From Eubacterium sp. AB3007 (GTDB lineage Bacteria > Bacillota > Clostridia > Peptostreptococcales > Anaerovoracaceae), in NCBI RefSeq assembly GCF_000688015.1, contig NZ_JIAD01000001.1:496001-560000 (forward strand): DNA of 64,000 bases, in the 5' to 3' direction. A program made the position numbers and the translations under genes. Below, one piece after another: positions 27,941 through 49,700 of the stretch. The notes under the pieces are model-generated. The model was not told where the DNA came from. It ran no database searches and worked only from the letters and a program-made list of their open reading frames with translations. Each line of letters opens with the position of its first letter. Position 1 is the first letter of the stretch.

Positions 27941-27965
27941 CCATCAGTGCTACCGTCTCCACATG
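27941..27965 (-). repeat. Degenerate rlmD-end copy 1 (left-most)
   Basis: On the minus strand this reads as codons for H-V-E-T-V-A-L-M-A-Y-A-D-R-stop, matching the native RlmD C-terminus H-V-E-C-V-V-L-M-S-R-A-D-R. The sequence after the stop (GAGGTGCTGAAAGGCTTG) also matches the DNA after native rlmD. The rest of 27818-28078 is AT-rich with no gene. Confidence 0.8.
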
Positions 27966-28067
27966 CCCCGAGACGCCATTATGAATGTCCACAGTACAAG
28001 CGAATTAACCAACCAGAGCGCGTTCAACCGAAAAAATCTACTGTTTCTCTTCGGCCGAACACTTCTA

Positions 28068-28077
28068 CAAACTGGAA
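28068..28077 (-). repeat. Cassette tail motif after the CPBP gene
   Basis: Minus strand TTCCAGTTTG directly after the TAA of the CPBP gene. One of seven such motifs in the island; the others are at 33853, 37795, 39048, 43678, 44262 and 44823. Confidence 0.6.
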
Positions 28078-28078
28078 A

Positions 28079-28798
28079 TTAGCGGCCTGAAATCTTCTTT
28101 GCTTTGGTCAGCCACAGGGCATAAAGCGCTTCCGCAACCAGCAGAACACCAAAGAGGATCAACTGTGGCGCGGATGACGAGGCGAGCTGCTCAACGAACA
28201 GGCTGTTTGTAAAATCGATCAGGAAGTGGGCGACAATGACCTGCAGGATGCTGTTGTTCTTGAGATAAACGGCAGCGAAAACCATGCCGACCACAAAAGA
28301 GTATGCCATCTGTACTGAAACGCTGACGACATCGAGGCCGACCAGATTGGTCAGGTGCGCTGCGGCGAACAAAGCAGCGGAAATGAACAAGCATGGAAGC
28401 GCACCGGTTCCCTTTTTCTTCAGGTTATAGATCAGAATGCCCCGGAAAAGGACTTCCTCAAAGATGGCCGGCGCCGACGCAGTGACCAAAGCCTCGATTA
28501 CGAAATTTCTTCCTCCGAACACCATCCCGGAACTGAAATTGTAAAAGAGATTCCACGCGGCAAACAGCAGCGCCGGAATGACCGCTGGAAGGTTCTTAAA
28601 AGGCCGGTCGCGTGTAAACGCTCTATTATAAATCACAATCAGCGCCGCGCCGATCAGAACCCTGCCGACCGAGGAACTCAGCGCGGGGTGCACATTGAAA
28701 ATCGCACCCACCAGCGAAAAAACCCCGGCGGCAAGGAATGCCGCAATGACCAGAACGATCTCAAACAAGACCGGGTGTCTTTCTCCAAACTGAAACAT
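28079..28798 (-). CDS. CPBP family intramembrane metalloprotease
   Basis: 239-residue integral membrane protein with about seven hydrophobic segments and the ABI/CPBP (Rce1-like) motifs: FEEVLFRGILIYNL (EExxxR, near residue 115), a histidine in AAHLTNL (near 155), and HFLIDFTNS (near 200). Family members process CAAX proteins in eukaryotes; bacterial ones act in bacteriocin immunity or peptide maturation. It stands 12 nt downstream of a PrsW-like protease gene. Substrate unknown. Confidence 0.9.
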   Translation of the reverse strand: MFQFGERHPVLFEIVLVIAAFLAAGVFSLVGAIFNVHPALSSSVGRVLIGAALIVIYNRAFTRDRPFKNLPAVIPALLFAAWNLFYNFSSGMVFGGRNFVIEALVTASAPAIFEEVLFRGILIYNLKKKGTGALPCLFISAALFAAAHLTNLVGLDVVSVSVQMAYSFVVGMVFAAVYLKNNSILQVIVAHFLIDFTNSLFVEQLASSSAPQLILFGVLLVAEALYALWLTKAKKISGR

Positions 28799-28810
28799 CG
28801 TACTTATTCC

Positions 28811-29596
28811 TTAACACATGGAATGATTCTCTTTCCGTCTCTCCCCGGCAAGCTCCTGTTTGTCGCCGTTCCTGCTCCATGCACCGACTTTCCTGAGGAA
28901 CAGGATCAGTGCGATGAGGGTTCCTATCATAGCCACAATGGCACCGATCGCCATCGGGATAAGATAGTTGTAGTATGGCAGATTTGCTAGCTGGTCCGCA
29001 GTTATGCCTACTAGATCTTTAGTGCTGCCGACGACCGACATGAGGCCTATGATAAACATGTCGAACACTGTGTGAACCAGAATAGGTACTAGCAGTGACA
29101 ATACGTGATACTTGGACTGTCCAGTGACACGGGCTTTGCCGTAATAATATCCCATGATCCCCTGGAACAGGATATGACCCGGCAGGATCGCCCGGATAAT
29201 AGTTCCGGCACCGTCGAACAGATAAGTCATATCCTCCAGAAGAGTGAATCCGATACCAACAGCGATCGCTGCTATGATCACATCCAGCCAGCAGACAACT
29301 TCCCTGTTCTTCCTTATTGCAAGACGGAACACGATGTATTTGATGATCTCTTCGGTCAGAGAGGCAGTGATCAGGGCCGTCAGAAAGCCGCTGACGATCG
29401 GGTTCATGCCAAAGAATGTGTCTTCCTTAATAGGCAGTACCTGTGACAGGCAGAACCACAGGATCACACCCAGTGCGCCGAATAATACGAACTTGATGAC
29501 CGCTTTCCTGGAATAAGGTTCTCCGGTCTTTTTCCTGAGTACCCAGGCCAGAATGAGAAAACACACAGCGAACTGTGCAAGTGCTGCAAAAATCAT
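28811..29596 (-). CDS. PrsW family glutamic intramembrane protease
   Basis: 261 residues with about eight membrane segments. The catalytic signature is TASLTEEIIKYIVFR (EExxK, near residue 80), GIGFTLLEDMTYL (E in third helix, near 115), HILFQGIMGYYYG and HTVFDMFIIG (near 185). PrsW relatives start the cleavage of anti-sigma factors in response to membrane damage; no anti-sigma gene is adjacent, so the substrate is unknown. It lies directly upstream of the CPBP protease gene and downstream of a DUF3267 protease gene. Confidence 0.85.
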   Translation of the reverse strand: MIFAALAQFAVCFLILAWVLRKKTGEPYSRKAVIKFVLFGALGVILWFCLSQVLPIKEDTFFGMNPIVSGFLTALITASLTEEIIKYIVFRLAIRKNREVVCWLDVIIAAIAVGIGFTLLEDMTYLFDGAGTIIRAILPGHILFQGIMGYYYGKARVTGQSKYHVLSLLVPILVHTVFDMFIIGLMSVVGSTKDLVGITADQLANLPYYNYLIPMAIGAIVAMIGTLIALILFLRKVGAWSRNGDKQELAGERRKENHSMC

Positions 29597-29666
29597 TTTT
29601 TATCCTCCATAATACTTATATAGTCCAGCCCGATCAGGTAAACGGATACGATCGAGCCAGGTTTTT

Positions 29667-30236
29667 TTATTTCTCAGGCATATACCAGAATGTATCGTAT
29701 TTGTGCTGGTATATCCGGCCTCCTTTCGGCACCTGGCGCAATGCATTACGCACATTATAGAAATCTCCTGCAGCAGTCGCTATGCCAAGCATGCCCAGTG
29801 TTGCCAGCACAGTGAGTTTCGGATTGATCCAGAAAATGATGAACGGGATAAACCCAAGCACTATACTCGGGAGTAAGCATTTGAATATGAAATGACCTTT
29901 GCTCATCCTCTCCGGCCCCGCCATGAACAGCATCCCATGCTTCAGATCATGAAACATATACACATCATCTTTAAAGCATATAGCGTGCAGGAACTCATGG
30001 GGAATGATCGTCAGAAGATACAGAAAGACTCCTGCATAGCTGAAGACAACATCTCGGGCTCTTATGCACGCCAGAATGAAGAAAAAGAATATTATTGCGA
30101 CTGAAATTATGGACATTATACCGCTGAGCTGTTTTGGATCCTTAGCTTCCTTGAACTGCACTGCTCCCGGTTCATGCTCCAGACAAGGAATATCATCCGG
30201 ATTGCCGCTGTACTTACCTGCATAGTGAAATGTCAT
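29667..30236 (-). CDS. DUF3267 putative zinc metalloprotease
   Basis: 189-residue membrane protein with a zinc-protease helix TIIPHEFLHAICFKDDV (HExxH, near residue 80) between hydrophobic segments, and a later GDFYNVRNALRQVPKG that supplies a possible third ligand region. This is the DUF3267 layout, thought to be a distant site-2-protease relative. It is the first of three membrane proteases in a row on this strand. Function unknown. Confidence 0.82.
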   Translation of the reverse strand: MTFHYAGKYSGNPDDIPCLEHEPGAVQFKEAKDPKQLSGIMSIISVAIIFFFFILACIRARDVVFSYAGVFLYLLTIIPHEFLHAICFKDDVYMFHDLKHGMLFMAGPERMSKGHFIFKCLLPSIVLGFIPFIIFWINPKLTVLATLGMLGIATAAGDFYNVRNALRQVPKGGRIYQHKYDTFWYMPEK

Positions 30237-30275
30237 ATGTTCTCCTTTTGAATATAAGACCTGTTTTTTCTTCGA

Positions 30276-30425
30276 TCAAGGAAGCTGGTGGATGAAGTCT
30301 ACCAGTTTTTCACGGTCGTAGAAAGTATCGTACTTGCTGATGGTAAAATCAGGAACAATGCCCTGGTCAGCATTATATAGTGATCCGTTCTTGAGCGTGC
30401 TGATCTGGATCGGCTGTATCCAATT
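30276..30425 (-). pseudogene. C-terminal remnant of an S41 peptidase
   Basis: Minus strand codons in one frame read IQPIQISTLKNGSLYNADQG then IVPDFTISKYDTFYD and end in a stop at 30276-30278. The (N/D)xGIxPD pattern and the terminal helix are typical of carboxyl-terminal processing (S41) peptidases. Only about 48 residues remain and there is no start. Its 5' end is fused out of frame to a transposase remnant. Confidence 0.6.
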
Positions 30426-30694
30426 TCCTCTGATACTAATTTTACACTATCTCCCTTCTCAAAACAACGACGAAATACTTCCAGCTTAAACTCCGCCGGA
30501 GGGTTTCGGGGATGCTCGATGGTGTTTTTACAATTGGGTTTCTTTCGTTTTACTCTTGGTTTCCCTTCGTTGCGAATCCAGTTATGCAACTGTTCTCTGC
30601 TTGGATAACCGAGTCGGCGCACTGTATCTGTAACGGATCCTATCCGATGATACATACGTAGTGCCTTAACTCTCTGCTCTTCTGAATACATCAA
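30419..30694 (-). pseudogene. Truncated IS3-type transposase (helix-turn-helix OrfA part)
   Basis: About 90 residues survive: MYSEEQRVKALRMYHRIGSV, RLGYPSREQLHNWIRNEGKP, a lysine-rich stretch, and FRRCFEKGDSVKLVSEEIGY, the two helix-turn-helix units of an IS150/IS3-like transposase. The frame then runs out of register into the S41 remnant, so the open frame of 131 codons is a chimera. No terminal inverted repeats were found. Confidence 0.7.
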
Positions 30695-30770
30695 TGACTC
30701 CTTTCAGAGCCCTCATATGTGTCCAGGTTTTTGTCCGCATCCCCGTCTCCAATCGACATCGAGGCATAAT

Positions 30771-30808
30771 AAGAGCTCCCCACCGCCTTGATTGGTAGTG
30801 AGGAGCTT
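30771..30808. terminator. Terminator-like hairpin, shared with 43573-43664
   Basis: AAGAGCTCCCCAC and GTGAGGAGCTTT form a hairpin just downstream of the TfoX-like gene (minus strand). The 5' flank (AATCGACATCGAGGCATAAT) is the same as at 43553, so this is a repeated element. Confidence 0.55.
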
Positions 30809-30817
30809 TGGTATGTC

Positions 30818-31135
30818 TTACTTCTTTCTCTTCTTCGGAGCAGGCAGTTCTTCATACATCGCTTCCAGTAGCTCTCGCAGGAACTCCCTGTTTTCTACAT
30901 CGTCTACAAGCAGCATTTCTTTCGCTCCTTCATACGGAAGCTCCAACTCTGCATCTGGCATCATGGTCACCGCAGCCTTCACAGGTTTCACCAGAAAGCG
31001 GTCATCATATATACCTCCGACCACCTTGCCGCAGTAGTAGATGATGTATTCCCCCATCATGGCACGATAGGATATGTCATCCAGCCCTGAAAGCTGATCT
31101 AATATGTATTCCAGATAATCTTTACTTGATGACAT
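30818..31135 (-). CDS. TfoX N-terminal domain protein, paralog 1
   Basis: 105-residue TfoX_N domain protein: DYLEYILDQLSGLDDISYRAMMGEYIIY, VGGIYDDRFLVKP, and MLLVDDVENREFLRELLEAM. In gamma-proteobacteria the domain belongs to the competence regulator TfoX/Sxy, but such short stand-alone forms are common in Firmicutes and uncharacterised. I chose ATG 31135 (MSSSKDY); a longer in-frame start at 31234 overlaps the upstream gene. Two more paralogs lie at 40054 and 46409, with about 80 percent shared residues by eye. Confidence 0.88.
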   Translation of the reverse strand: MSSSKDYLEYILDQLSGLDDISYRAMMGEYIIYYCGKVVGGIYDDRFLVKPVKAAVTMMPDAELELPYEGAKEMLLVDDVENREFLRELLEAMYEELPAPKKRKK

Positions 31136-31155
31136 ACTATTCTCTCCTACATTGA

Positions 31156-31533
31156 TTATGATGATTGTCCTCTTGTCTTCCTGCAAATTGCCACAATGCA
31201 TCCAATTACAATAGGAATAGGATGCAAATACCACAGAAGGTCAAGCCCGGTTGTCACCACCATCAATCCTACCAGTGATACAAACGCCGTAATCAGATAA
31301 CACACCAGCAACACTATACCTAAAACCAAGCCTGCCCTTCCTTTTCCCCATAGACAGGTGACAAGAAATCCGATTCCCATGATCCACGCTCCGGTCTTAT
31401 AGGGATTAATGATTGTAAAGACAGGCAACAGCAAATCCTGTGTTGCATTAGGCAAAACAAATATATACACGCCCATGAGCACGAATATTACAATGCAGAT
31501 CGCATCAATGATCTTAACTGCCTTCATAGACAT
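31156..31533 (-). CDS. Small integral membrane protein
   Basis: 125 residues with four hydrophobic segments (about 8-28, 40-58, 66-88, 95-115) and a short basic C-terminus. No motif of a known enzyme or transporter is visible. It lies 13 nt downstream of the DUF5301 lipoprotein gene and just upstream of TfoX-like paralog 1, so it is probably part of that five-gene unit. Function unknown. Confidence 0.72.
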   Translation of the reverse strand: MSMKAVKIIDAICIVIFVLMGVYIFVLPNATQDLLLPVFTIINPYKTGAWIMGIGFLVTCLWGKGRAGLVLGIVLLVCYLITAFVSLVGLMVVTTGLDLLWYLHPIPIVIGCIVAICRKTRGQSS

Positions 31534-31546
31534 TTCGACACCTCAC

Positions 31547-31939
31547 TTACTCTTGAAGCAGAGTCTCTTCTAAATAATCTTCCATCTCATAAATTCCCCT
31601 GTACGGTTGTTCGATATAGTGTTTACTATCTTTATCGTAGTAGTAAACCACTGTTGATTCACCAACGGTATTGATGCTGATGGTTCCGTAGGCGTCAACA
31701 TTCGTAGGCTGGTCATTTACGGATTCCAACCGAGTCGGTTCAGCTGCGCTTAAAGCAGTCATGACTGTCTCAATCTGATTGGCTTCTGTAATATCGGCTT
31801 TAGCTCCGTCGAGCGTAATGACCTCTATACTTATGACAGCCTCATTGGATGGCAAATCTATCGGCTCAGCTTTCTTTCCGCATCCAGCCAAAACTGTCAG
31901 AATGCAAATCATTGTTAATATAAGGATTCTTCTATTCAT
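31547..31939 (-). CDS. Lipoprotein with DUF5301-like domain
   Basis: 130 residues. A lipoprotein signal (ILILTMICILTVLAGC, cysteine near 20) precedes a domain of about 100 residues that includes SVNDQPTNVDAYGTISI and ends with YYYDKDSKHYIEQPYRGIY, the DUF5301 pattern. Probably exposed on the outer face of the membrane. It starts 3 nt downstream of another lipoprotein gene, so three lipoproteins form one operon. No function is known for the family. Confidence 0.78.
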   Translation of the reverse strand: MNRRILILTMICILTVLAGCGKKAEPIDLPSNEAVISIEVITLDGAKADITEANQIETVMTALSAAEPTRLESVNDQPTNVDAYGTISINTVGESTVVYYYDKDSKHYIEQPYRGIYEMEDYLEETLLQE

Positions 31940-31942
31940 TCG

Positions 31943-32371
31943 TTAATATCCCCACGTCATCAGCTTCCACTGACCACCGTCAGAACGTGCCAGCCACCAT
32001 TGCCAATCCGTATACTCTTCATCTGCATCCCAAGCACCACCGCCTTCTTTTGGTGAATGGAAATTGCTCTTAAACATAATACACTGCGCGAATGATTCCT
32101 TTGCATCATTTGCTTTTTCCAGCTCATTCATCCACTTTATGTTTTCATCATTGCATTCCTCATCCGTACCATAGGTGATGCTATGCAGTTCGCAGCCATC
32201 CCAAGTATCAAATTCTTTTTTTATCATCTGAATTGCAGAATCCATATCTTCTTTTGAGTATATTGATGAATTGCCGTAATCTATTGTTACTTCAGACGAA
32301 GACTTCGCGCAACATCCAGCTAACATAACAACACATATAACGGTAAGCAATAATGCAATCATTTTTCTCAT
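31943..32371 (-). CDS. Small lipoprotein of unknown function
   Basis: 142 residues with a lipoprotein signal (ALLLTVICVVMLAGCC, cysteine near 20). The mature part has YSKEDMDSAIQMIKKEFDTW, then GCELHSITYGTDEE, and ends with YTDWQWWLARSDGGQWKLMTWGY, a tryptophan-rich tail. The family is common in Clostridia but I know no function. Its ATG overlaps the stop of the DUF4300 gene by 4 nt (ATGA), so it is translated together with it. Confidence 0.78.
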   Translation of the reverse strand: MRKMIALLLTVICVVMLAGCCAKSSSEVTIDYGNSSIYSKEDMDSAIQMIKKEFDTWDGCELHSITYGTDEECNDENIKWMNELEKANDAKESFAQCIMFKSNFHSPKEGGGAWDADEEYTDWQWWLARSDGGQWKLMTWGY

Positions 32372-33147
32372 CGTTTCAGTTCTCCTATACTCTCCCCATT
32401 CTTATATACAACCGGCGCAGGGTCGCCCTCTTCTGATGTGTAGTCCGGTCTCTCGGAAAGCATCTCTATCAGATCGTTCTCATCTTTGAAGAGTGTGATT
32501 TTGAATGGATCGCCGAAAGCGATCTTCTCCACGAACAAATAGTTGCTATCGACAGATTCGATATTCCTGCAATCAATCAGAATACCGGTATGTCCAACGA
32601 ATGCTGCCTCCTCCTCATAAGCCTTAAACAGGATGCTGATGACGGAGCATTTATCGCTTTCCACATTTATTCCATGTTTACTCCAGTTTTCGGGTAGGGT
32701 TTCGGCAAACCTATTCTTCGAGATTGCCATTTCGCCAAACATGGTAGTAAACAGCTGTTTCTTTTCCTTCAGTATGCTGTACTCGTCTTTATTCTCTATC
32801 GCATCCATATCGAACATCAGGTAAGTGCCATTGTAGTCTTCCTCAACGCTGTCGTATTTGATCAGTTCACCTGCAAGAAGCATGACTGTCATACGGCAGT
32901 CGGCATCGGTAAAGCCAGACATGTCCGAAGCTTTCTCGGACGCACCAGATGCCGAGTCCTTAACCCATTTCTCAAACACATCCACATTGGAGAGACCTGC
33001 CTCATTTAGGATTTCGCACACCTGCGATACGTTTTCTTTTGTTATGTCGCCGGATTCGAGCGGCTTTCCCTTTCCCGAACTGCATGCTGCAAGCGCGGTT
33101 AGCACCAGAACCATAAGAAGGCTCAGTACGATCGATTTTCTACTCAT
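32368..33147 (-). CDS. DUF4300 family lipoprotein
   Basis: 259 residues with a lipoprotein signal (VLSLLMVLVLTALAAC, cysteine near 22). The mature domain contains VCEILNEAGLSNVDVFEKWV, TDADCRMTVMLLAGE, and TGILIDCRNIE with FVEKIAFGDPFKI, in keeping with DUF4300 lipoproteins of streptococci and clostridia. First gene of an operon of three lipoproteins, a membrane protein and TfoX-like paralog 1. Function unknown. Confidence 0.8.
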   Translation of the reverse strand: MSRKSIVLSLLMVLVLTALAACSSGKGKPLESGDITKENVSQVCEILNEAGLSNVDVFEKWVKDSASGASEKASDMSGFTDADCRMTVMLLAGELIKYDSVEEDYNGTYLMFDMDAIENKDEYSILKEKKQLFTTMFGEMAISKNRFAETLPENWSKHGINVESDKCSVISILFKAYEEEAAFVGHTGILIDCRNIESVDSNYLFVEKIAFGDPFKITLFKDENDLIEMLSERPDYTSEEGDPAPVVYKNGESIGELKR

Positions 33148-33206
33148 TCGTCCTTATTTGACCTCATATTTTAAATTCCCTCGACATCAACTCTAAGCCG
33201 TTAGAA

Positions 33207-33366
33207 TTATTGTAGCCACTCTGGTTGAGAGTCTATATTTGATGCGAGTTTTACAAGAGTACATTTACCCACTCTTCGATCCAAAATCACAAACATTCGA
33301 ACCACTGCGTTTTCATCATCCAAATATACAGCAATGCTCTGATATCCAAACAGCGCACTCGACCCT
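33207..33366 (-). other. Possible gene remnant ahead of the DUF4300 operon
   Basis: An open minus-strand stretch ends in AVYLDDENAVVRMFVILDRR, about 42 protein-like residues, with a stop at 33207. It is joined upstream to repeat DNA (a degenerate 26-bp unit at 33341-33366) without a credible start. It could be the tail of a lost cassette gene. The sequence 33148-33206 shows nothing recognisable. Confidence 0.3.
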
Positions 33367-33369
33367 CCG

Positions 33370-33425
33370 TCAAAATGAGCCGTAGATAAGTTTCCGGGGA
33401 GTGTTTTTCGAGCTGCGCGAGTGAG
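33370..33425 (-). repeat. Leader element X, copy 1
   Basis: About 55 bp with the landmarks GCTCATTTTG, AACTTATCTAC and AGCTC on the minus strand. Two nearly identical copies occur at 41905-41960 and 48381-48436, each next to a 26-bp array. No function known. Confidence 0.6.
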
Positions 33426-33465
33426 CAACATACACAGATCCCATAGCAACGCTCCTCTCTGCCCT

Positions 33466-33608
33466 GACATCTAAATAGCCGTCTCAACCCCCGACATCCA
33501 AATCACAGCCACAACCCGCTGTTATCCAAATCACTAACTCAACCCTACCGCAAAAACATCTAAACCGGCCACTCAACCCTCTGACATCTAAATGGCCTAC
33601 TCAACCCT
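33466..33608 (-). repeat. Array 1 of 26-bp rlmD-end-like units (five units)
   Basis: Units at 33466, 33493, 33521, 33555 and 33583, each 25-26 bp, plus strand form GACATC-nAAA-(7-8 variable)-CTCAACCC or close variants. A more degenerate unit lies at 33341. Spacers are 1-10 nt. The units align with the 3' end of rlmD. The array, the rlmD-end copy at 33738 and element X fill the 725-bp gap between the DUF4300 operon and the decarboxylase gene. Confidence 0.75.
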
Positions 33609-33763
33609 CCGACCGGAGCGATTGATATGTTCTGACAGAGCGATTTTTAAGGTCAAATCCGCCCACTGCCGCGGACGGCCTGATGCCAGGAAAGCCCGGA
33701 AATACGGCACTATTTCGGCAGTCAATCCTTAACCCGTGACATCAATACTACGCACTCCACATG
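33493..33763 (-). repeat. 271-bp direct repeat, copy A (downstream of the decarboxylase)
   Basis: Equal in length and about 85 percent identical by eye to 35118-35388. Both copies run from a 26-bp unit array, through GTTCTGACAGAGCGATTTTT and a block ending AAATACGGCAC, to an rlmD-end copy. Together they bracket the decarboxylase gene. Confidence 0.8.
33738..33763 (-). repeat. rlmD-end copy 2
   Basis: Identical over 26 bp to the native rlmD end at 48511-48536; translated on the minus strand it gives H-V-E-C-V-V-L-M-S-R, then V-K-D and a stop. Upstream of it on the same strand are GACAAATTCGGTCAT (33794-33808) and GACAATTTCGGTCAT (33822-33836), similar to the rlmD codons for D-N-F-P-M-T. Confidence 0.85.
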
Positions 33764-33852
33764 CCTGGAGACTATGAAATTGATGTCGGTGCTATGACCG
33801 AATTTGTCCAAGATTTTTGCTATGACCGAAATTGTCTACCGACACATCCCTG

Positions 33853-33862
33853 CAAACTGGAA
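33853..33862 (-). repeat. Cassette tail motif after the decarboxylase gene
   Basis: Minus strand TTCCAGTTTG, followed by CAGGGATG, 10 nt after the decarboxylase stop. Confidence 0.6.
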
Positions 33863-33872
33863 TATGTCGAAT

Positions 33873-35084
33873 TCATGTTATTAGCTCTCCATCTTGCGTC
33901 ATGAAGATTTCAACAGGCCGATCCTGCGAGGAAAACTGCATGGGCGATAAGACTGCGGCATAGCCGCCTGCATTTGTGATGACAACGCAATCTCCGCATT
34001 CGAGATGCGGCAGAACAACGTTTTCCGCTATTACATCAGCAGCAGTACAGAGATTCCCAACCAGTGTAACGGTCTCAACCTCCTTGTGTTCTGTTAAAGG
34101 AAGAAACTGGAAAGCATTCGCGCAGGTAAACAGCGGTTCGACAGAAGTTTGCGAGAGTCCCAGTGTGTATCGTTCAACCAGCTTGGCCAACGATGGCCGC
34201 AGAAAACCGTTCATGGTATTCTTTAGGATCACAAATGTTTTTCCGTAGGATTCTTTGCGATCCAGCACTTTTGTCACATAGACACCATGCTTACAGACGG
34301 CAAAACGGCCAAGCTCAATGATTACCCTTGTACCGGGACAAATTTCCCGGAATTTCCGAATATGTTCTTGGACGAACTTCCCCAAATAAGGAAGATCCAG
34401 CGGAGTGTCCGATTCTGCATAGGGGACGCCGATCCCGGATCCCATGTTAACATATTCAAGCCCGCCGCAGATATCATAAAACCGTTTAGCAAGTCCAAAC
34501 ATTTTATCATAATACGCGGCTAAATTGTCAGGATTCAATTCCTGGCTTTTCAGGTGAACATGAATCCCATTGATTTCAACATTTTCATAGTTGTACTTCT
34601 GAAGAAAACGGACGGCCTGTTCTTCGTCTATGCCAAACTTTGAGGGAAGCCCATGGCTGTTATCAAAGGTAAAATCCGGATTGATGCGAAGGCCAACTCT
34701 GAATACCCCTCCTGTGCGTGCAGCAACCTGTTGGATTCGAGCAACCTCATCCAGACTGTCTGCAATCAAAGTGGCTTTTGTGGAAGCGCCTTCGATCTCC
34801 TTTGCAGTTTTCCCGGGGGCAGAATAGTATATCTGATTTCTGGTCAGTCCCGCTTCACTTGCCAGAAGAACCTCGCCCAAGCTGGCGGCATCTGCGCCAA
34901 GTCCCTGACCGAAAATACAGTTCAACACATGGGGATTGGAGTTACATTTGATGGAATACAAGAACGAAACATCCGGAAAACACCGCTTCAATTTCGAAAG
35001 AGCTTCCAGAATTCCTTTCTCATCATACAAGTAGAAACTGTCGTAGCGTTCTGCACATTTTTCTATAAGGGTGCGATTGTTCAT
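33873..35084 (-). CDS. PLP-dependent decarboxylase, diaminopimelate/ornithine family (fold III)
   Basis: 403 residues of the group IV (alanine-racemase fold) decarboxylases. FLYSIKCNSNP near residue 42 has the PLP lysine, NGIHVHLKSQ near 175 and NMGSGIGVPY near 215 bind the cofactor, IIELGRFAV near 260, and the C-terminal GNLCTAADVIAENVVLP (near 345) supplies the catalytic cysteine-aspartate region. It resembles diaminopimelate decarboxylase but could act on ornithine, arginine or a carboxy-polyamine. The ATG at 35084 follows GAGG; the longer frame runs into repeat DNA. It is alone between 271-bp direct repeats, so I infer it is a single-gene cassette. Confidence 0.85.
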   Translation of the reverse strand: MNNRTLIEKCAERYDSFYLYDEKGILEALSKLKRCFPDVSFLYSIKCNSNPHVLNCIFGQGLGADAASLGEVLLASEAGLTRNQIYYSAPGKTAKEIEGASTKATLIADSLDEVARIQQVAARTGGVFRVGLRINPDFTFDNSHGLPSKFGIDEEQAVRFLQKYNYENVEINGIHVHLKSQELNPDNLAAYYDKMFGLAKRFYDICGGLEYVNMGSGIGVPYAESDTPLDLPYLGKFVQEHIRKFREICPGTRVIIELGRFAVCKHGVYVTKVLDRKESYGKTFVILKNTMNGFLRPSLAKLVERYTLGLSQTSVEPLFTCANAFQFLPLTEHKEVETVTLVGNLCTAADVIAENVVLPHLECGDCVVITNAGGYAAVLSPMQFSSQDRPVEIFMTQDGELIT

Positions 35085-43464: not shown

Positions 43465-43466
43465 TC

Positions 43467-43571: not shown

Positions 43572-43572
43572 T

Positions 43573-43664: not shown

Positions 43665-43677
43665 TGGTCTGTCTTTA

Positions 43678-43687
43678 TAAACTGGAA
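43678..43687 (-). repeat. Cassette tail motif after GNAT gene 1
   Basis: Minus strand TAACTTCCAGTTTA beginning at the stop codon. Confidence 0.55.
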
Positions 43688-43688
43688 G

Positions 43689-44231
43689 TTATCTGACAGA
43701 CTGCCATTCCTCTTTGGAAAGGCATGTTATATGTTCCGTTCGGAGAACGCCCTCTATGGCACAGGGCACATTATAGGCCGTATGATGATAATGAAAACCG
43801 CACTTCTCCTGAACACGCTTTGACCTTTCATTCCCATCAAAGTAACCACACCATATTTTATTAAGTTTCAGGTTTTCAAAACCGTAGCGCATCAATTCCC
43901 TGACTGCTTCCGGTATCAGCCCTCGTCCCCAATACGGAACTCCGATCCAGTAGCCGATTTCACCTTCTGAATCAGGAAGGCCAATATTGCTGGCTTTCCC
44001 AAGCATAAGTCCAATGCTGCCAACAGGCTGGCCTGATTCTTTTAATACTACAGCATAGGTCTCCGGCGCTGAAAGAACCCTCCGGATTATTTCACGGCTA
44101 TTCTCTACACTTGTATGAACCGCCCATCCTGCGATTGGTCCCACATCAGGATGACTTGCATATTTAAATAAATTCTCCGCATCGCTTTCTTCCCACGGTC
44201 GGAGGATCAATCTTTTCGTTTCAAGTATCAT
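43689..44231 (-). CDS. GNAT family acetyltransferase (RimJ/RimL type)
   Basis: 180 residues: [20 protein letters not shown] at the start, [40 protein letters not shown] (acetyl-CoA loop, near residue 105) and [20 protein letters not shown] near 135. Typical of GNATs that acetylate proteins or small amines; substrate unknown. Last gene of the operon that starts with GyrI-like B at 48241. Confidence 0.88.
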
Positions 44232-44261
44232 GGCATACCTCTCTTACCAGCGGCATCTCTG

Positions 44262-44271
44262 CAAACTGGAA
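44262..44271 (-). repeat. Cassette tail motif after the AAC(6')-like gene
   Basis: Minus strand TAGATTCCAGTTTGCAGAGA starting with the stop codon, then ATGCCGC, in a 41-nt gap before the next gene. Confidence 0.6.
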
Positions 44272-44272
44272 T

Positions 44273-44809
44273 CTACAGTGCTAATTCCATCAGCCAGCAA
44301 TCTACTTTTTCTCCCTCAAACATCTCATGTTTTGGAAGTGATTTAATGATTTTAAACCCGGCTTTCTCGTATGCCCTTATAGCCCTTTTATTATCTTGGT
44401 GCGGGTCAAGAAGAACTCGTTCCGCAGCCATATTATCTTTCAGATGAGAAGCCATCATTTTCAAAAAAGATGAGCCTATTCCCTTACTCCAGTATTTCGA
44501 CTCACCTATAAACTGATCCATAGCAAACACTATATGTCCATCGTCAGGATAGTCATATTCATCGAACAATTCACCACTCAATTGATAGGCCTGTGCATAT
44601 CCGATGGGGGATTTCTTATACTCGATGATCATTCTGAATCCATCTGGAATTTCTTCCAAAAAATGTGCAGACAAAGTATCCATCGTAAACCTGACGTCAC
44701 GACCTTCGTAATACTCCAGCACTCTCTTATCTGTCAACCATTTAAACATGAGTGGAAGATCTGTTTCCGTAAAATCTCGGATTGTTATTTCATCTTTTTC
44801 TATTTTCAC
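44273..44809 (-). CDS. AAC(6')-Ie-like aminoglycoside acetyltransferase homolog
   Basis: 178 residues, closely following the acetyltransferase half of the bifunctional AAC(6')-Ie enzyme: LPLMFKWLTDKRVLEYYEGR near 18, IIEYKKSPIGYAQAYQL near 62, FAMDQFIGESKYWSKGIGSS near 95, VLLDPHQDNKRAIRAYEKAG near 133, and HEMFEGEKVDCWLMEL at the end. Acetylation of aminoglycosides is a reasonable prediction but unproven. There is no APH half. The start is GTG 44809, 5 nt after GGAGG. Single-gene cassette look, tail motifs on both sides. Confidence 0.85.
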   Translation of the reverse strand: MKIEKDEITIRDFTETDLPLMFKWLTDKRVLEYYEGRDVRFTMDTLSAHFLEEIPDGFRMIIEYKKSPIGYAQAYQLSGELFDEYDYPDDGHIVFAMDQFIGESKYWSKGIGSSFLKMMASHLKDNMAAERVLLDPHQDNKRAIRAYEKAGFKIIKSLPKHEMFEGEKVDCWLMELAL

Positions 44810-44822
44810 GTAATCCTCCCTG

Positions 44823-44832
44823 CAAAATGGAA
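44823..44832 (-). repeat. Cassette tail motif after GNAT gene 3
   Basis: Minus strand TTGACAACTTCCATTTTGC, 3-20 nt after the TAG; it also supplies GGGAGG for the next gene. Confidence 0.55.
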
Positions 44833-44841
44833 GTTGTCAAT

Positions 44842-45303
44842 CTAGCCAATAGTTTTTCTCATATATGCAAATGACAGATCTCTGTCCCCCTGCTCTTCCT
44901 TGTATATTCGGTAACCGAGCTTCTCATACAGGTTTATATTGATATAGCTTTTAGTGCAGGTGTACAGTTCGAATGTTTTTGCCTGCGTAAGTTCTTCGAC
45001 TGCAGTCATCAGACCGATCGCAACACCGCGGTTCCTGTATTCCTGTGCAACCATGACGCGGCCGATCTCGATATGATCGCTTTCTTCTCTGAACCTCACG
45101 GCCCCGATGATCCTGCCCTCATCATTGCGCTTTACAAGCACCGTCCAGTTCCTGAAATCCGCCCGGTTTTCTTCGAGGGACTCCATCAGAGCGGGCACAT
45201 TCCTGCTGCCTATCATTTCAGCTTCACTCTCGAATGCTCTCAGCTGCAGATCAAACAATTCCCTTATATCTTTTTCTTTTGCTATTTCATAACCACTACT
45301 CAT
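44842..45303 (-). CDS. GNAT family acetyltransferase
   Basis: 153 residues from ATG 45303 (MSSGYEIAKEKDIRELFDLQ); a start four codons upstream (45315) is possible but would lie inside the head motif. IIGAVRFREESDHIEIGRVM and VAQEYRNRGVAIGLM (acetyl-CoA loop, near 85) are standard GNAT features, and LYEKLGYRIYKEE is the usual end. Substrate unknown. It sits between the MBL gene (13-nt junction with a head motif) and the AAC(6')-like gene. Confidence 0.85.
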   Translation of the reverse strand: MSSGYEIAKEKDIRELFDLQLRAFESEAEMIGSRNVPALMESLEENRADFRNWTVLVKRNDEGRIIGAVRFREESDHIEIGRVMVAQEYRNRGVAIGLMTAVEELTQAKTFELYTCTKSYININLYEKLGYRIYKEEQGDRDLSFAYMRKTIG

Positions 45304-45313
45304 TATTTCTTCC

Positions 45314-45329
45314 ATAAATCCCGATTTGT
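45314..45329 (-). repeat. Cassette head motif before GNAT gene 3
   Basis: Minus strand TGACAAATCGGGATTTAT: the TGA is the stop of the MBL gene, and the start codon follows within 12-15 nt. Confidence 0.55.
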
Positions 45330-45910
45330 CAATCCAATACCCTTTCAGGTCTATGTGAATAGAAGACCCGTTTAGGTTGGAAGGACAATATATGCTCCCA
45401 GTCGCTTTTCAGTTTTTCATTCTCTTCATATACTTCTATATACTCGAAAGGCTCAAGATCTCCGACAAAACAATCACCGTCATCCATGATCAGTGAAACG
45501 CTGTCTTCACTATGACTATGCGTGTGGATTATCTCACCGGAAATGCCCGCCCGTAACAGGAACTCCCTGCTTTCAGAACATGAGATGACAGTTCCCAGGC
45601 TCTCATCGATTGGTGTATACGGAAGCCTGTCTCTTGCAAAAATACTGTCTGAGAAATGCACATAGTCTCTTTGAACATCTATCAGAATTAGCATGGCACC
45701 CTGTTTCATCAGATCACTGATAAGCCCCATATGATCCGGATGATAATGCGTCGCCAGTACATATTTTATGTTGTTAACCTTGATACCGTTTTGTTTCAGC
45801 GCCTTATAGAACGCAGGTAAAGTCCCGGCATAATCGGTATCTACAAGCAGGCCTCCGTCATTGCCTTCAATAAAAAATGTATTGGTGTTTCCGTACCTCA
45901 ATATAGTCAT
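45329..45910 (-). CDS. Metallo-beta-lactamase fold hydrolase
   Basis: 193 residues. The zinc site is LATHYHPDHMGLISDL (HxHxDH, near residue 55), with further ligands in IIHTHSHSEDSVSLIMDDGD (near 130) and SHRPE at the end. N-terminal strands TNTFFIEGNDGGLLVDTDY are typical. It belongs to the general MBL hydrolase group; nothing points to a true beta-lactamase. The ATG at 45910 is 11 nt after the upstream stop; a TTG at 45928 is a possible alternative. Confidence 0.86.
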   Translation of the reverse strand: MTILRYGNTNTFFIEGNDGGLLVDTDYAGTLPAFYKALKQNGIKVNNIKYVLATHYHPDHMGLISDLMKQGAMLILIDVQRDYVHFSDSIFARDRLPYTPIDESLGTVISCSESREFLLRAGISGEIIHTHSHSEDSVSLIMDDGDCFVGDLEPFEYIEVYEENEKLKSDWEHILSFQPKRVFYSHRPERVLD

Positions 45911-45921
45911 TATTCCGTTAC

Positions 45922-46404
45922 TTACCAAATATGTGGTATCAGCTTGCTTGTTTTTCTGCAGTATTCTTCGTATGCTTCACCAAAGTCCTGTTTAAGGCGC
46001 TCTTCTTCTCGTTTGACCTGGATCATCATGATCGCAAAGTAGGCTGCAAATACTGCGGCGGATTGCCATGTTCCCAGAAAAATGATAACGCCAGCATAAT
46101 ATATGAACACGCCTAATAACATAGGATTCCGGCATATTCTGTACGGGCCATCCGTCATCAGGTTGACCGTGCGCGGTGCTACCTCATGATTGAAAGCATC
46201 CATCGGATTTCCCTCGCCCACATTTTTCATATAAATGATGGACCATATACTAAGTCCCATCCCGATGGCTGCCATTACTCCTAAGCAAATCAACCGCGCT
46301 GCATTCGGATGCACTTCTCCCGAAAACTTCCACATTATCAGCGGAATCAGTATCACAAACAGGATCAGCCCCATCAGATAGCCTATAAGTTCTCTTGCTT
46401 TCAT
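45922..46404 (-). CDS. Isoprenylcysteine carboxyl methyltransferase-like membrane protein
   Basis: 160 residues with four to five hydrophobic segments and the ICMT/PEMT pattern: LMTDGPYRICRNPMLLGVFIYYAGV (from PYRICRNPMLLG near 100) and KREEERLKQDFGEAYEEYCR near 135. Predicted to methylate an isoprenoid- or lipid-linked substrate using SAM; the target is unknown. ATG 46404 lies 4 nt after the TfoX-like stop, behind AAGTGAG. An upstream in-frame start would overlap TfoX. Confidence 0.84.
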   Translation of the reverse strand: MKARELIGYLMGLILFVILIPLIMWKFSGEVHPNAARLICLGVMAAIGMGLSIWSIIYMKNVGEGNPMDAFNHEVAPRTVNLMTDGPYRICRNPMLLGVFIYYAGVIIFLGTWQSAAVFAAYFAIMMIQVKREEERLKQDFGEAYEEYCRKTSKLIPHIW

Positions 46405-46408
46405 ACGC

Positions 46409-46723
46409 TCACTTCTTTTTCTTTGGAGCAGGAAGTTCCTTATACATCGCCTCAAGCAATTCTCCCAGGAATTCCCTGTTTTCCACATCATCAACAAGGA
46501 TCATCTCCTTGGCACCTTCATACGGTACTTCCATGTCTGCATTTGGCATCATGGTCAATGCAGATTTTGTAGGCTTAACAAGAAAACGGTCATCATAAAC
46601 ACCGCCAACAACCTTGCCCCGAAAGTAGATAATGAACTCCCCCATCATCGCACGATAGGATATGTCATCCAGCCCTGAAAGCTGATCTAATATGTATTCC
46701 AGATAATCTTTACTTGATGCCAT
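46409..46723 (-). CDS. TfoX N-terminal domain protein, paralog 3
   Basis: 104 residues: SKDYLEYILDQLSGLDDISY, MMGEFIIYFRGKVVGGVYDD, and ILVDDVENREFLGELLEAMY. Closest to paralog 1 at 30818, with which it shares the first 29 residues almost exactly. It lies between the CDP-alcohol phosphatidyltransferase gene and the ICMT-like gene. Function unknown. Confidence 0.9.
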   Translation of the reverse strand: MASSKDYLEYILDQLSGLDDISYRAMMGEFIIYFRGKVVGGVYDDRFLVKPTKSALTMMPNADMEVPYEGAKEMILVDDVENREFLGELLEAMYKELPAPKKKK

Positions 46724-46750
46724 TCCATTTCTCCTACAAAGATCATTCGT

Positions 46751-47242
46751 TCATTCCATCACATTACGATTGACCAAATACCCTTCCTGAATCGCCGCTA
46801 TAGTCGCAACCACGCATACGATTGCGGCACTGTATCTAAGATCTATGAATGCCAGTGTCAGCGGTAAAACGAACAGCATCCCTCCAGTCACCTTATTCAT
46901 TACGGAATGAACAGATATGAACTCTTTCTTGCTGAAGAATCTTACTGCAATATTCATCACCTTAATCATGGCAATGATAGCAATCCATATATAAAGCCAG
47001 ACCGGTATATGTAATACAGGCAGCAGTTTAATCAGGCATACCGCTACGAATACAATATCTGCACCTGTATCAAGCCTTGAGCCGAACTCACTGACGGTAC
47101 CTGTTTTTCTTGCAACAGCACCATCGATCATATCTGAGAATCCGGCAACTATATACAGTGCATAAAATGATGGCGATAATGCTGGACAGAACATCAAAGC
47201 AATGCTTAGCACTATTCTGATTCCGGTGATGATATTTGCCAT
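46751..47242 (-). CDS. CDP-alcohol phosphatidyltransferase
   Basis: 163-residue membrane enzyme of the CDP-alcohol phosphotransferase family (PgsA/PssA-like). The signature D-x2-D-G-x2-A-R-x8-G-x3-D-x3-D is complete in the stretch SDMIDGAVARKTGTVSEF and GSRLDTGAD (residues 32-58). Four or five hydrophobic segments follow. Unusually short for PgsA, and a second such gene in an accessory operon hints at a non-standard lipid head group. It lies 27 nt upstream of TfoX paralog 3 and 1 nt downstream of the VOC gene. Confidence 0.88.
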   Translation of the reverse strand: MANIITGIRIVLSIALMFCPALSPSFYALYIVAGFSDMIDGAVARKTGTVSEFGSRLDTGADIVFVAVCLIKLLPVLHIPVWLYIWIAIIAMIKVMNIAVRFFSKKEFISVHSVMNKVTGGMLFVLPLTLAFIDLRYSAAIVCVVATIAAIQEGYLVNRNVME

Positions 47243-47243
47243 G

Positions 47244-47606
47244 TTAAACCGGTGTCCCTACTTCTATCAGATTTCCGTCTGGATCATAGAAACGTATAAC
47301 CTTTTGTCCCCAGCTGTGCGTCATCAGCTGATTGACGTATTTCACATCCGGATAATACTTTTCAAGCCTTTCCACAAAGCCTTCTATGTCTCGTTCCTCA
47401 AAATAGAGCTCGCAGGAATTATTCTCCGGAATGATATCTCTCCCAAGAAACTCTTTCCAGTATTTTTCTTCCTGCAGCACCAACCCTTCCGTCAGGATCA
47501 TATTCCCGTCATTATCAAGAACCAACCCAAGACCGAACAGATCATGGTAAAACTGTCTGGATCTCTCGATGTCCTTAACGACGATCAGTACATTTTTCAG
47601 TCTCAT
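47244..47606 (-). CDS. VOC (glyoxalase/bleomycin resistance) family protein
   Basis: 120 residues of the vicinal-oxygen-chelate fold: MRLKNVLIVVKDIERSRQFY, HDLFGLGLVLDNDGNMIL, CELYFEERDIEGFVERL, and VIRFYDPDGNLIEVGTPV. Typical small dioxygenase/antibiotic-binding type; activity cannot be predicted. The start overlaps the stop of GyrI-like B by 4 nt, so these two are translationally coupled. Confidence 0.9.
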   Translation of the reverse strand: MRLKNVLIVVKDIERSRQFYHDLFGLGLVLDNDGNMILTEGLVLQEEKYWKEFLGRDIIPENNSCELYFEERDIEGFVERLEKYYPDVKYVNQLMTHSWGQKVIRFYDPDGNLIEVGTPV

Positions 47607-48241
47607 TCTTCTCGCTCCTTTATTGGAAGACGAATCACAGTTTTCAACTTTTCCGGAGCGACTTTTCTTGCATCACTCAGATAGATTTCATGGTGTAAGC
47701 GCTGATCCGTGATATTAAGATCATAACCCTGCTCCTCTATGTATTCATGCATCATTTGAACAGTAGCAGGCTCATCATCATAGGATCCTATATGCATGCA
47801 CTGGACGCACAGTCCCTCATCACAAGTAAGAAATTCCACCTTTGAGAAATCCTGTTTCTTTTTCTTTGTTGCCTCTTCTATAGCCCAGTCGAAGTCTGCT
47901 CTTGTAACAAAGTCCGGCAGGCGGATCACAGAGATCCATCTGAAGTCTTCTTTGTGTGCATAGTCGACTCCGTCTACACCTTCCTGCCACCAGAAGCCCT
48001 CAAGCGGCGGTACAACATAATCGAAATATCCCTTGATCTGATGATCTCCTTTTTTACTCATCTTGATCGTAAAGGCAATGCCATACAACAGACCGATTGC
48101 CCGCTTATATTCGCCGTCTTCCTGATTTGGGTCGCCATGTCCACGAACAGCAATATAGTTCATGCTCGGTACCGTTACGATAGACGGCTTGTTCTTCGGC
48201 ATGTAAAAATCCTTATATTCCTTCTTATAATCAAAAGCCAT
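47603..48241 (-). CDS. GyrI-like small-molecule-binding protein, paralog B
   Basis: 212 residues, the partner of the gene at 41126: IVTVPSMNYIAVRGHGDPNQ, FWWQEGVDGVDYAHKEDFRW, CVQCMHIGSYDDEPATVQMM. First 30 residues nearly identical between the two, as are the upstream leaders, which suggests duplication of a cassette head with its first gene. It leads an operon of ten genes (47603 down to 43689). Confidence 0.88.
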   Translation of the reverse strand: MAFDYKKEYKDFYMPKNKPSIVTVPSMNYIAVRGHGDPNQEDGEYKRAIGLLYGIAFTIKMSKKGDHQIKGYFDYVVPPLEGFWWQEGVDGVDYAHKEDFRWISVIRLPDFVTRADFDWAIEEATKKKKQDFSKVEFLTCDEGLCVQCMHIGSYDDEPATVQMMHEYIEEQGYDLNITDQRLHHEIYLSDARKVAPEKLKTVIRLPIKEREE

Positions 48242-48536
48242 TTTTCATTCCTCCAAAACATCCTGACATCTAAACAACCGTCTCAACCCTCGACATCTAA
48301 ACAGCCCACTCAACCCTACCGTTTCTGACATCTAAATGGCACACTCAACCCCTGACATCTAAATGGCCTACTCAACCCTGCGGCAAAATGAGCTGTAGAT
48401 AAGTTCCCGTCGAGCGTTTTTTGAGCTTCCTGAGTGGCCGACTCGATAGGCGCTAATTTCATAAACCGCTTGTTTTCAAGCCTTTCAGCGCGTCTTACCT
48501 ATCAGCACGTGACATCAATACTACGCACTCCACATG
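48242..48536 (-). repeat. About 295-bp leader, copy B (between rlmD and GyrI-like B)
   Basis: Copy with the native rlmD end. From rlmD to the gene it holds the rlmD terminal codons, a nested stem-loop (48449-48492), element X (48381-48436) and array 4. Confidence 0.9.
48265..48379 (-). repeat. Array 4 of 26-bp rlmD-end-like units (four units)
   Basis: Units at 48265, 48292, 48327 and 48354, each 26 bp, with 1-, 9- and 1-nt spacers. The unit at 48265 matches rlmD-end copy 3 at 20 of 26 positions. Confidence 0.85.
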
Positions 48537-49700
48537 CTTCGTCATCGGAAAATTGTCATACGGCTTGGCGTAGACGGTCTCGTAGCCCAGTTCCTGGAAC
48601 TGGGCCAGGTTCTGGACCAGGGTCTTGGGGTTGCAGGACACGTAGACGATCTGAGGCACACCGTAGCCGGCGATCTTATCCACGGCCTCCCTGCTCATGC
48701 CCACCCGGGGCGGATCTACCACGATCACATCCGGAGCAGGCAGTTCTGTCTCCTCCGTGCTCCCGGCTTTGTCCAGCACCTTATACACGTCCCCGCAGAG
48801 GAAGCGACAGTTAGACAGCCCGTTGAGAGCCGCGTTGTCGATGGCGGCATCTACGCTGTCCTGCACCAGTTCCACACCGATGACCTGCTTGGCCCGCCGT
48901 GCCATGACCTGGCTGATGGTACCTGTGCCACAGTAGAGGTCGTAGACCGTCTTCCCCTCTATCTCATCGATGAGAGCCACCGCCTCGCTGTACAGCCGCT
49001 CCACTGCCTCCACGTTGGTCTGGAAGAAGGAGAACTCGTTCACCTTAAAATCCAGATCCAGCAGATGCTCCATATAGTAGTCCTGCCCAAAAACGATGTG
49101 GAGTCTGTCGCACCCGACTTTGTCCGCCAGGCCGTCAAACTCCGTGTGGAGCACGCCGGCGATGCGTCCGTCCAGGTTCAAAGCTGAGAGCCCCTGGCAC
49201 CAGCCTTCCGCATCGAACGTCACGCCGCACACCGGTGATGCGGTGACGATGTTCACCAGAAGTTCTCCGGTGCGCACGCCACAGCGTACCACCAGGTTGC
49301 GCAGTAGCCCCTGATGGGATTTCTTGTTGTATTTGGGATAGGCATGCTCCAGGCAGAAATCCAGCGTGTAGCGGAGCACCCGGTTGAAGTCCTCCGGCAC
49401 CAGCTGGCAGTGATCCACCGTAACCACGGACATGAACTGCCTCTTCTTATGCATGCCAAGCTCCAGCGGCCCGTCCTTCACCAGGTCACCGAAGGTGTAT
49501 TCCATCTTGTTCCGGTAGCGGTACGGCGATGGGCAGCCTTCTATTGTATCGAACTTCACCGGGGTGATCCCGGCCTTCTCGAACAAAGCATGGACCTCCC
49601 GCTCCTTGGCAGCAAGCTGTTCCTCATATGGTGTCCCCTGATGCAGACAGCCGCCGCAGACTCCAGCCAGTTCACAGATCTCCATTCTCTTCTCTTCCAT
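48495..49700 (-). CDS. rlmD: 23S rRNA (uracil-C5)-methyltransferase RlmD/RlmCD
   Basis: TrmA/RumA-family enzyme that methylates uridines (such as U1939) of 23S rRNA. The 401 residues have an N-terminal cysteine cluster (CELAGVCGGCLHQG, near 6-18), FSFFQTNVEAVERLY, VYDLYCGTGTISQV (SAM site, near 270), IVVDPPRVGM and the catalytic cysteine in IVYVSCNPKTLVQNL near 355. The ATG at 49700 follows GAGG by 8 nt; an ATG at 49721 is possible. Its last codons (H-V-E-C-V-V-L-M-S-R-A-D-R) are the sequence that recurs through the island, and its 3' end marks the island's right border. Confidence 0.95.
   Translation of the reverse strand: MEEKRMEICELAGVCGGCLHQGTPYEEQLAAKEREVHALFEKAGITPVKFDTIEGCPSPYRYRNKMEYTFGDLVKDGPLELGMHKKRQFMSVVTVDHCQLVPEDFNRVLRYTLDFCLEHAYPKYNKKSHQGLLRNLVVRCGVRTGELLVNIVTASPVCGVTFDAEGWCQGLSALNLDGRIAGVLHTEFDGLADKVGCDRLHIVFGQDYYMEHLLDLDFKVNEFSFFQTNVEAVERLYSEAVALIDEIEGKTVYDLYCGTGTISQVMARRAKQVIGVELVQDSVDAAIDNAALNGLSNCRFLCGDVYKVLDKAGSTEETELPAPDVIVVDPPRVGMSREAVDKIAGYGVPQIVYVSCNPKTLVQNLAQFQELGYETVYAKPYDNFPMTKHVECVVLMSRADR

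Follow-up and report, generated by a model that had tools for sequence, protein, structure and literature searches.

Four elements bounded by attachment sites, probably stacked in succession behind rlmD in Eubacterium sp. AB3007

Introduction

How does the 3' end of one gene come to be present five times over about 20.6 kb of a chromosome, with cargo genes lying between the copies? The locus that raises this question lies in a stretch of 64,000 nucleotides from Eubacterium sp. AB3007 (assembly GCF_000688015.1, contig NZ_JIAD01000001.1, positions 496,001 to 560,000), called the window below; coordinates are those of the window unless a contig is named. The repeated gene end is that of rlmD, and an earlier note, made from the letters alone, had proposed that cassettes without an integrase were inserted there repeatedly and site-specifically, each restoring the attachment (att) site. 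We report that the island is probably a tandem stack of four att-bounded elements (E1 to E4), inserted successively by a pair of large serine recombinases (LSRs) distantly related to CcrB, with E1 and E4 derived from phage carriers of about 56 kb.

Results

Five junctions at the rlmD 3' end

The five copies of the rlmD 3' end bounded four elements of 6.5, 6.7, 1.6 and 5.8 kb. As the earlier note had it, a 26-bp sequence was identical at 48511, 42035 and 33738 (none expected, 100 shuffles). At up to 3 mismatches it occurred nowhere else in the 2.3-Mb genome, which is a single contig. The copies at 35363 and 27941 were confirmed as genuine but diverged, and all five ran into their own stop codons.

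On the minus strand, each inner copy made up the right half of a 50-bp site starting with GACAT[C/T] and closing with GATGTC. Four of the five junctions had an element-type left half-site; the exception, 48511-48560, had rlmD's own left half. At 27940-27989 an element-type left half was joined to a right half reading HVETVALMAYADR and then a stop, which was taken as the original rlmD tail. Passages of PMC3783163 give an LSR half-site as 25 bp and attP as about 50 bp. The five junctions look like attL, three element-element sites and attR, each 50 bp long and resembling an LSR site. Their inverted-repeat arms agreed at 11, 12, 15 and 12 of 24 positions in the four sites with an element-type left half and at 10 of 24 at attL, all as raw counts without a shuffle control. 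The 50-bp junctions and the original tail at the far end argue for the insertion, with restoration of the site each time, that the note had proposed; the left half-sites completing the 50-bp sites, the original tail at 27941 and the arrays described below go beyond it. The gene and its junctions are as follows.

48495..49721, minus strand: rlmD (23S rRNA uracil-5-methyltransferase), target gene; its present last codons (HVECVVLMSRADR) come from E1
48511..48560, minus strand: putative attL, rlmD/E1 junction; target left half, core and element right half
42035..42084, minus strand: E1/E2 junction, attP-like site, 50 bp
35363..35412, minus strand: E2/E3 junction, attP-like site, 50 bp
33738..33787, minus strand: E3/E4 junction, attP-like site, 50 bp
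27940..27989, minus strand: putative attR, E4/chromosome junction; presumed original rlmD 3' end

Repeat arrays inside the ends

Each element had a conserved left module of about 290 bp, composed of the rlmD tail, a 130-132-bp spacer and at least four direct repeats of a 25-bp half-site-like unit with the consensus of about GGGTTGAGTNGNCNNTTTAGATGTC. The distance from core to array was 130 bp in E3 and E4 and 132 bp in E1 and E2. A pattern search found 17 copies of the unit in the window, where none was expected, and 17 of its 18 matches in the genome lay in the island; a profile search added one copy at 35146.

48265..48378, minus strand: E1 left-end array, four repeats, spacing 27/35/27 (type II)
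41788..41902, minus strand: E2 left-end array, four repeats (type II)
35118..35232, minus strand: E3 left-end array, four repeats, spacing 28/34/28 (type I)
33341..33607, minus strand: E4 left-end array, four type I repeats (33493-33607), a type II-like repeat (33466-33490) and a further unit (33341-33365)

The interval from unit 1 to unit 3 is 62 bp, close to six helical turns. When seven consensus units were compared with the right half of the core, 14-18 of 23 positions matched, and for each unit 0-58 of 20,000 shuffles did as well. Across 43 non-redundant type I ends, the core carried 1.59 bits of information per column, the spacer 1.18, the array 1.45 and the DNA past the array 0.26. The corresponding values for 11 type II ends were 1.83, 1.57, 1.83 and 0.75, a smaller drop than in type I. 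Some ends have lost inner units (L144, L159); this loss, and the joint of type I with type II-like repeats in E4, are as recombination between units would give. A third form of left end has a unit 2-3 bp past the core and lacks the 130-bp spacer (L058, 11214-11265; L220, 4022-4077).

The right ends carried copies of the other part of the target, the rlmD sequence left of the core (D-x-F codons); they lay upstream of the left half-site. Scored with a profile built on 76 targets, 19 of 21 right ends had at least one copy exceeding the shuffle 99% level (6.6 bits); two of the 23 candidates were left out of this count, rlmD itself (L147) and one in L118, set aside by eye. Distances of the copies from the core were commonly near 48, 77 and 107 bp, or 58 and 119 bp, and L161 has about four copies by eye. 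In the window three of the four right ends carried copies, two of them weak. The DNFPMT-like recurrences that had been noted upstream of two rlmD copies are real and form part of this wider pattern.

42097..42118, minus strand: E1 right-end repeat (GTTGACAAGTTTCCGATGACAT); a strong copy (21 bits) of the rlmD left half, lying 58 bp from the core
33790..33871, minus strand: E3 right-end repeats; three copies, all weak (7.8-9.9 bits), whose starts lie 48, 76 and 108 bp from the core
28020..28041, minus strand: E4 right-end repeat; a single copy, weak (9.2 bits), at 76 bp from the core

Intact carriers are phages with two LSR genes

The same ends were found around a whole phage in a congener, taken as Hornefia butyriciproducens (G002). 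Behind rlmD on its contig C22 (about 211,790 to 268,410) came a left module, then three cargo genes, a pair of LSR genes, phage genes and type I restriction genes, with a right end of the same type about 56.6 kb along. The LSRs (520 and 519 aa) had Resolvase, Recombinase and zinc-ribbon domains, and SCCmet_CcrB was the best NCBIfam match of both LSR_a and LSR_b (147.9 and 138.8 bits, respectively, against a cut-off of 900). Eight of nine proteins tested matched PHROGs, as endolysin, holin, tape measure, head, portal, terminase, helicase/primase and ssDNA binding.

A 55.6-kb contig (C17) of Lachnospiraceae bacterium FE2018 (G067, L130) had the same two ends and LSRs 94-96% identical to those of G002. 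Matches in G002 were found for 30 of its 46 open reading frames (ORFs) of at least 120 aa, several at 99-100%, and phage proteins up to 100% identical between the two genomes suggest a recent transfer across families. The same 34 bases spanning the core stood at both ends of this contig (L217-L219), and a P-type site would be complete across them. These repeated ends could be what a circle joined at attP would give; alternatively, they could reflect an assembly break.

Relatives of LSR_a (E<=1e-130) occurred in 30 of 198 genomes of the order. Twenty-two stretches, covering 23 of the 33 LSR_a matches (G020 and nine matches of 45-52% identity were left out), were searched for the core; L272 is the query's own locus and L270 overlaps the record of L117. 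A core-like site was found in 15 of the 22, always within 10 kb, and in none of the 22 when the stretches were reversed. One of 12 other stretches held such a site, and this one (L203) is itself on a contig with an array. The right-end scan showed a right end in a sixteenth LSR_a stretch, L103. Where an LSR gene lay behind an array, it was 0.2-4.9 kb inward, and G002 and G067 carry two. In L209, L255 and L103, related LSR pairs lay nearer the right end (0.15-6 kb from it), and at least two element architectures may share these sites.

Contents of the four elements and remains of LSR_a

The elements and the phage remains in E1 and E4 are listed below.

42061..48536, minus strand: E1; GyrI-like, glyoxalase, CDP-alcohol phosphatidyltransferase, TfoX_N, PEMT, metallo-beta-lactamase fold, three GNATs and an SLFN/AlbA_2 protein
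43470..43674, plus strand: E1 scar of LSR_a, its last 33 codons (43470-43568) and adjoining phage DNA (43480-43585, 43640-43674); 75.8% identity in amino acids, 92-97% in nucleotides to the G002 prophage
35389..42060, minus strand: E2; GyrI-like, YoaP-like, TfoX_N, DUF4256 and a major facilitator superfamily (MFS) transporter; an IS21-family element interrupts it near the right end
35468..37649, plus strand: istA/istB of the IS21-family insertion within E2
33764..35388, minus strand: E3; one gene, a pyridoxal phosphate (PLP)-dependent Orn/DAP/Arg decarboxylase (33873-35159)
27966..33763, minus strand: E4; SF0329-like fragment, DUF4300, two ORFs without a Pfam match, DUF5301, TfoX_N, helix-turn-helix (HTH), DUF3267, PrsW and Rce1-like
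30750..30836, plus strand: E4 scar, DNA surrounding the LSR_a stop codon; 90-91% nucleotide identity to the G002 and G067 phages

Also in E4, 31165-33169 was 95.5% identical over 2005 bp to cargo of the FE2018 phage, and 31165-31941 was 91.6% identical to G002. The LSR_a scars together with the identity to phage cargo mark E1 and E4, on the evidence of their sequences, as deletion derivatives of dual-LSR prophages. When 30 ORFs were scanned with Pfam no integrase gene appeared, and no PF00589 or PF00239 match fell inside the island, in agreement with the earlier note that no integrase gene is present. The series of cassettes that it described is not a stand-alone system without an integrase: the LSR pair occurs with the same ends in intact phages of the congener and the Lachnospiraceae genome, and E1 and E4 bear its scars. 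The note's placing of all cargo genes on the minus strand holds for most of them, the IS21 pair and an LSR scar being the exceptions.

The left modules of E1 and E2 were 98% identical over 145 bp, against 75% for a 300-nt stretch of the next gene. When 10 window proteins were submitted to PADLOC, two gave weak partial matches (the SLFN/AlbA protein and the metallo-beta-lactamase-fold protein), which are not used as evidence of defence. A plasmid search with one left end as the query gave no match. A TfoX_N-like gene is present once each in E4 (30818-31234), E2 (40054-40365) and E1 (46409-46723), with 78-82% nucleotide identity over 300 bp, and DNA resembling these genes is also present in L246.

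The ends in other genomes

One genome per species was scanned for the left module, which was found in 93 stretches among 84,980 species. Four units were present in 45 stretches, three in 26, two in 11, one in 10 and five in 1. The core could be located in 79 of the 93, and in 78 of these it lay 128-133 bp from the array. The commonest spacings were 28/34/28 (30 loci), 28/34 (19) and 27/35/27 (13). An rlmD-type gene ended at most 250 bp upstream in 48 of the 83 loci with 400 bp of upstream sequence. Among the 80 of 93 hosts listed, most were metagenome-assembled genomes (MAGs) from gut or rumen named Clostridia, Lachnospiraceae and similar. A few Atopobiaceae and Coriobacteriaceae, one Bifidobacterium, a Spirochaetia MAG and a Dehalococcoidales MAG were also listed, as were single-repeat matches such as Anabaena. 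Left modules are present behind rlmD or rlmCD in many gut Clostridia and some Actinomycetota.

Sixteen short elements bounded by cores were compared, the four in the window and twelve elsewhere. Two encode an LSR-like protein (L211a, L213b), three have a 3' scar of an LSR (E1 and L215a by protein search, E4 by DNA) and 11 show neither. Outside the window ten short elements also lacked an LSR gene, four of them with both ends clear. An array and an element-type left half-site were both clear in eight of the 16 (E1-E4, L236, L243, L246, L215a). In L239, L161, L241 and L213b the array was present and the left half-site was not clear; L143a, L221a, L213a and L211a had no array of their own. A host-like rlmD tail was restored after L236, L239, L243, L246 and L161. 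Cargo outside the window was named mostly by eye, and Pfam confirmed a phosphotransferase (L236) and an M28 peptidase (L161). The ends were conserved beside unrelated cargo. At rlmCD, L211 and L213 hold elements of 1.9 and 3.2 kb with one LSR-like gene each, whose product shares about 36-38% identity with LSR_a in the first 320 residues.

Surroundings of the island

The product of the first gene beyond the island (26903-27817) scored above the NCBIfam cut-off as 'radical SAM mobile pair protein B'. G004, where the rlmD end is filled differently (L042), has genes for DUF5131 and Radical_SAM proteins some 8-9 kb beyond that end. The draft contigs L043, L051 and L064 and the rlmD contigs of G008, G009, G010 and G015 break off no more than a few hundred bases from the 3' end of rlmD, as would happen if repeats interrupted assembly at this place. 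Beside phage-like ORFs at about 67100-69900 in window coordinates, outside the window (G000:C1:563100-565900), is a second LSR pair (528 and 400 aa), around which a repeat search found no comparable half-site array. A 124-aa ORF beside it resembles a ComEC end by eye and gave no Pfam match.

Discussion

We propose that an LSR pair recognises a site of about 50 bp whose core is formed by the rlmD codons H-V-E. The circle of an incoming element would carry a P-type 50-bp site, with the array of right halves on one side and repeats of the left half on the other, and the pair would recombine it with rlmD or with a resident site. Each insertion would exchange the rlmD tail for an equivalent one. 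The intact carriers are phages of about 56 kb, integrated behind rlmD in the congener and found also in the Lachnospiraceae genome; E1 and E4 have kept both ends and the accessory genes of such phages and lost the LSRs and phage genes. The half-site-like arrays inside both ends are most likely extra LSR-binding arms of attP, and are read in this way because the unit is half-site-like in size and sequence, the spacing is fixed, and the arrays persist beside unrelated cargo. The sites, the ends, the parents and the scars are seen in the sequences themselves; we infer that a pair of the G002 and G067 type catalysed the insertions and binds the arms, and that the elements are still mobile in trans.

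Several results weigh against this proposal. No LSR_a homologue was found in the window genome at E<=1e-130, and the only two resolvase-domain genes of this genome are in the second phage region outside the window. No core was found in 7 of the 22 LSR_a stretches. Of the 32 loci for which 3.5 kb of sequence was available, only 10 had an LSR gene at most 5 kb inward of the array, against 3 of 45 towards rlmD, so most left modules have cargo and no LSR nearby. Among ten viral contigs with LSR_a relatives (4.5-13 kb), none had a core; one had two repeat units and nine had nothing. E2 and E3 have the same ends and no recognisable LSR scar, giving no direct sign of phage descent. E2 also has no right-end repeat, the IS21 element sitting just inside its end, and the right-end repeats of E3 and E4 are weak.

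The best of the other explanations is that the LSR-less elements, of about 1-7 kb, are a living cassette system, a standing population moved in trans whenever an LSR phage enters, like SCC without ccr or integron cassettes. It would account for the 11 of 16 short elements with neither LSR nor scar, for conserved ends beside unrelated cargo, and for left modules of E1 and E2 that are so much more alike than the gene that follows. The scars imply that at least E1 and E4 arose by loss, no LSR-less element was found whole in two hosts, and eight of the 16 elements lack an expected feature (array or clear left half-site). We regard it as possible, although we lean towards the stack of successive LSR insertions.

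It is unlikely that the four-repeat array is instead a regulatory region of the cargo, a promoter or operator with no part in attachment. Cargo genes do begin just past the array, and the spacer can fold into hairpins, possibly an rlmD terminator (a fold obtained without a shuffle control). The resemblance of the consensus units to an attachment half-site speaks against regulation, as do the right ends' own repeats of the other target half and the lack of any fitting Rfam family, the two sub-threshold matches lying outside the arrays. These two matches were also all that could be set beside the idea of an RNA element, which was dropped.

If segmental duplications of the rlmD end, or homologous recombination, had scattered the repeats with no site-specific integration, the near-identical left modules of E1 and E2 and the mixed array of E4 would fit. 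This is very improbable given the element-type left half-sites at four of five junctions and the same ends in other genera with unrelated cargo; the comparison with a whole phage bounded by these ends already disfavours it.

Successive insertion by an LSR pair was next compared with known systems. The gene rlmH encodes a 23S rRNA methyltransferase. Excerpts of PMC6222049 describe SCC/ECC elements with a CcrAB LSR pair, insertion at the 3' end of rlmH, sites of about 50 bp whose inverted repeats are found in attR and in the circle, several att sites, and cargo that varies. The present island shares with them the LSR pair, the 3' end of a 23S rRNA methyltransferase gene, inverted-repeat sites of about 50 bp and a composite structure with several att sites. 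It differs in that the target is rlmD or rlmCD, the core is formed by H-V-E codons and not TATCATAA (absent from all five junctions), the LSRs fall far below the CcrA/B/C cut-offs and are missing from the window elements, the intact carriers are phages, and half-site-like arrays are present at both ends. By these likenesses SCC/ECC would be the closest working analogue.

CIMEs (cis-mobilisable elements) are bounded by att sites, lack recombination genes of their own and become stacked through site-specific recombination and deletion; Pavlovic et al. reportedly described them, and tandem accretion, in 2004. E1-E4 resemble CIMEs in being att-bounded and without recombination genes. CIMEs derive by deletion from integrative and conjugative elements (ICEs) or integrative and mobilizable elements (IMEs) and are mobilised by, or by recombination with, a related element. 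The scars of E1 and E4 point instead to phages with two serine recombinases as parents, E2 and E3 show no origin, and the ends here are compound. The island would work like composite SCC or CIME islands, with membership of either not claimed. Excerpts of PMC4701971 and PMC5357655 describe streptococcal ICEs and IMEs with serine integrases that insert in rumA and exchange its 3' part. The target gene family and the use of a serine integrase are the same. Those elements have a single integrase with the att site in its own gene, in contrast to two LSRs set back by cargo, phage genes in the carrier, and arrays. The earlier note had supposed that such a series of cassettes was not described; going by those excerpts, tandem accretion and rumA serine integrases are published, and only the compound ends and this family can stand as new, within the literature searched.

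An integron had been suggested by the cassette-like genes and a GTTGAGT motif (the integron core is GTTRRRY). This reading was dropped, the units being direct 25-bp repeats that match the rlmD end and the five PF00589 matches of the genome all lying outside the window. Tn7-like or IS21-type ends were considered too, and the island's IS21 stands apart from the arrays. In lambda-type attP, used by tyrosine integrases, the core is flanked by arm binding sites. A core flanked by arrays is analogous, although the putative arms here resemble recombination half-sites and go with serine recombinases.

According to a passage of PMC3783163, serine integrases are valued for working on short sites alone, with no 'auxiliary DNA sequences'; what is novel here is the arrays, because LSRs are held to do without such DNA. 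In the open-licence PMC literature we found no paper containing both 'large serine recombinase' and 'rlmD' and, among the papers listed, none on LSR sites with half-site arrays. Tentatively, and with more doubt than confidence, the findings can be generalised to an armed LSR-pair site. In it, a 50-bp attP would be flanked on one side by one to about four mimics of the target's left half and on the opposite side, 130-132 bp off, by four right-half mimics in fixed 28/34/28 or 27/35/27 phasing. Such ends alone would suffice for LSR-less cassettes to spread in trans among gut bacteria that belong to several families and to two phyla or more.

If true, an LSR family with conserved half-site-like arrays at its ends would be a directly testable exception to the short-site rule. 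It would also mean that small accessory genes (kinase, peptidase, GNATs) gather behind rlmD in gut Clostridia by a widespread and seemingly unnamed route, parallel to that of SCC at rlmH.

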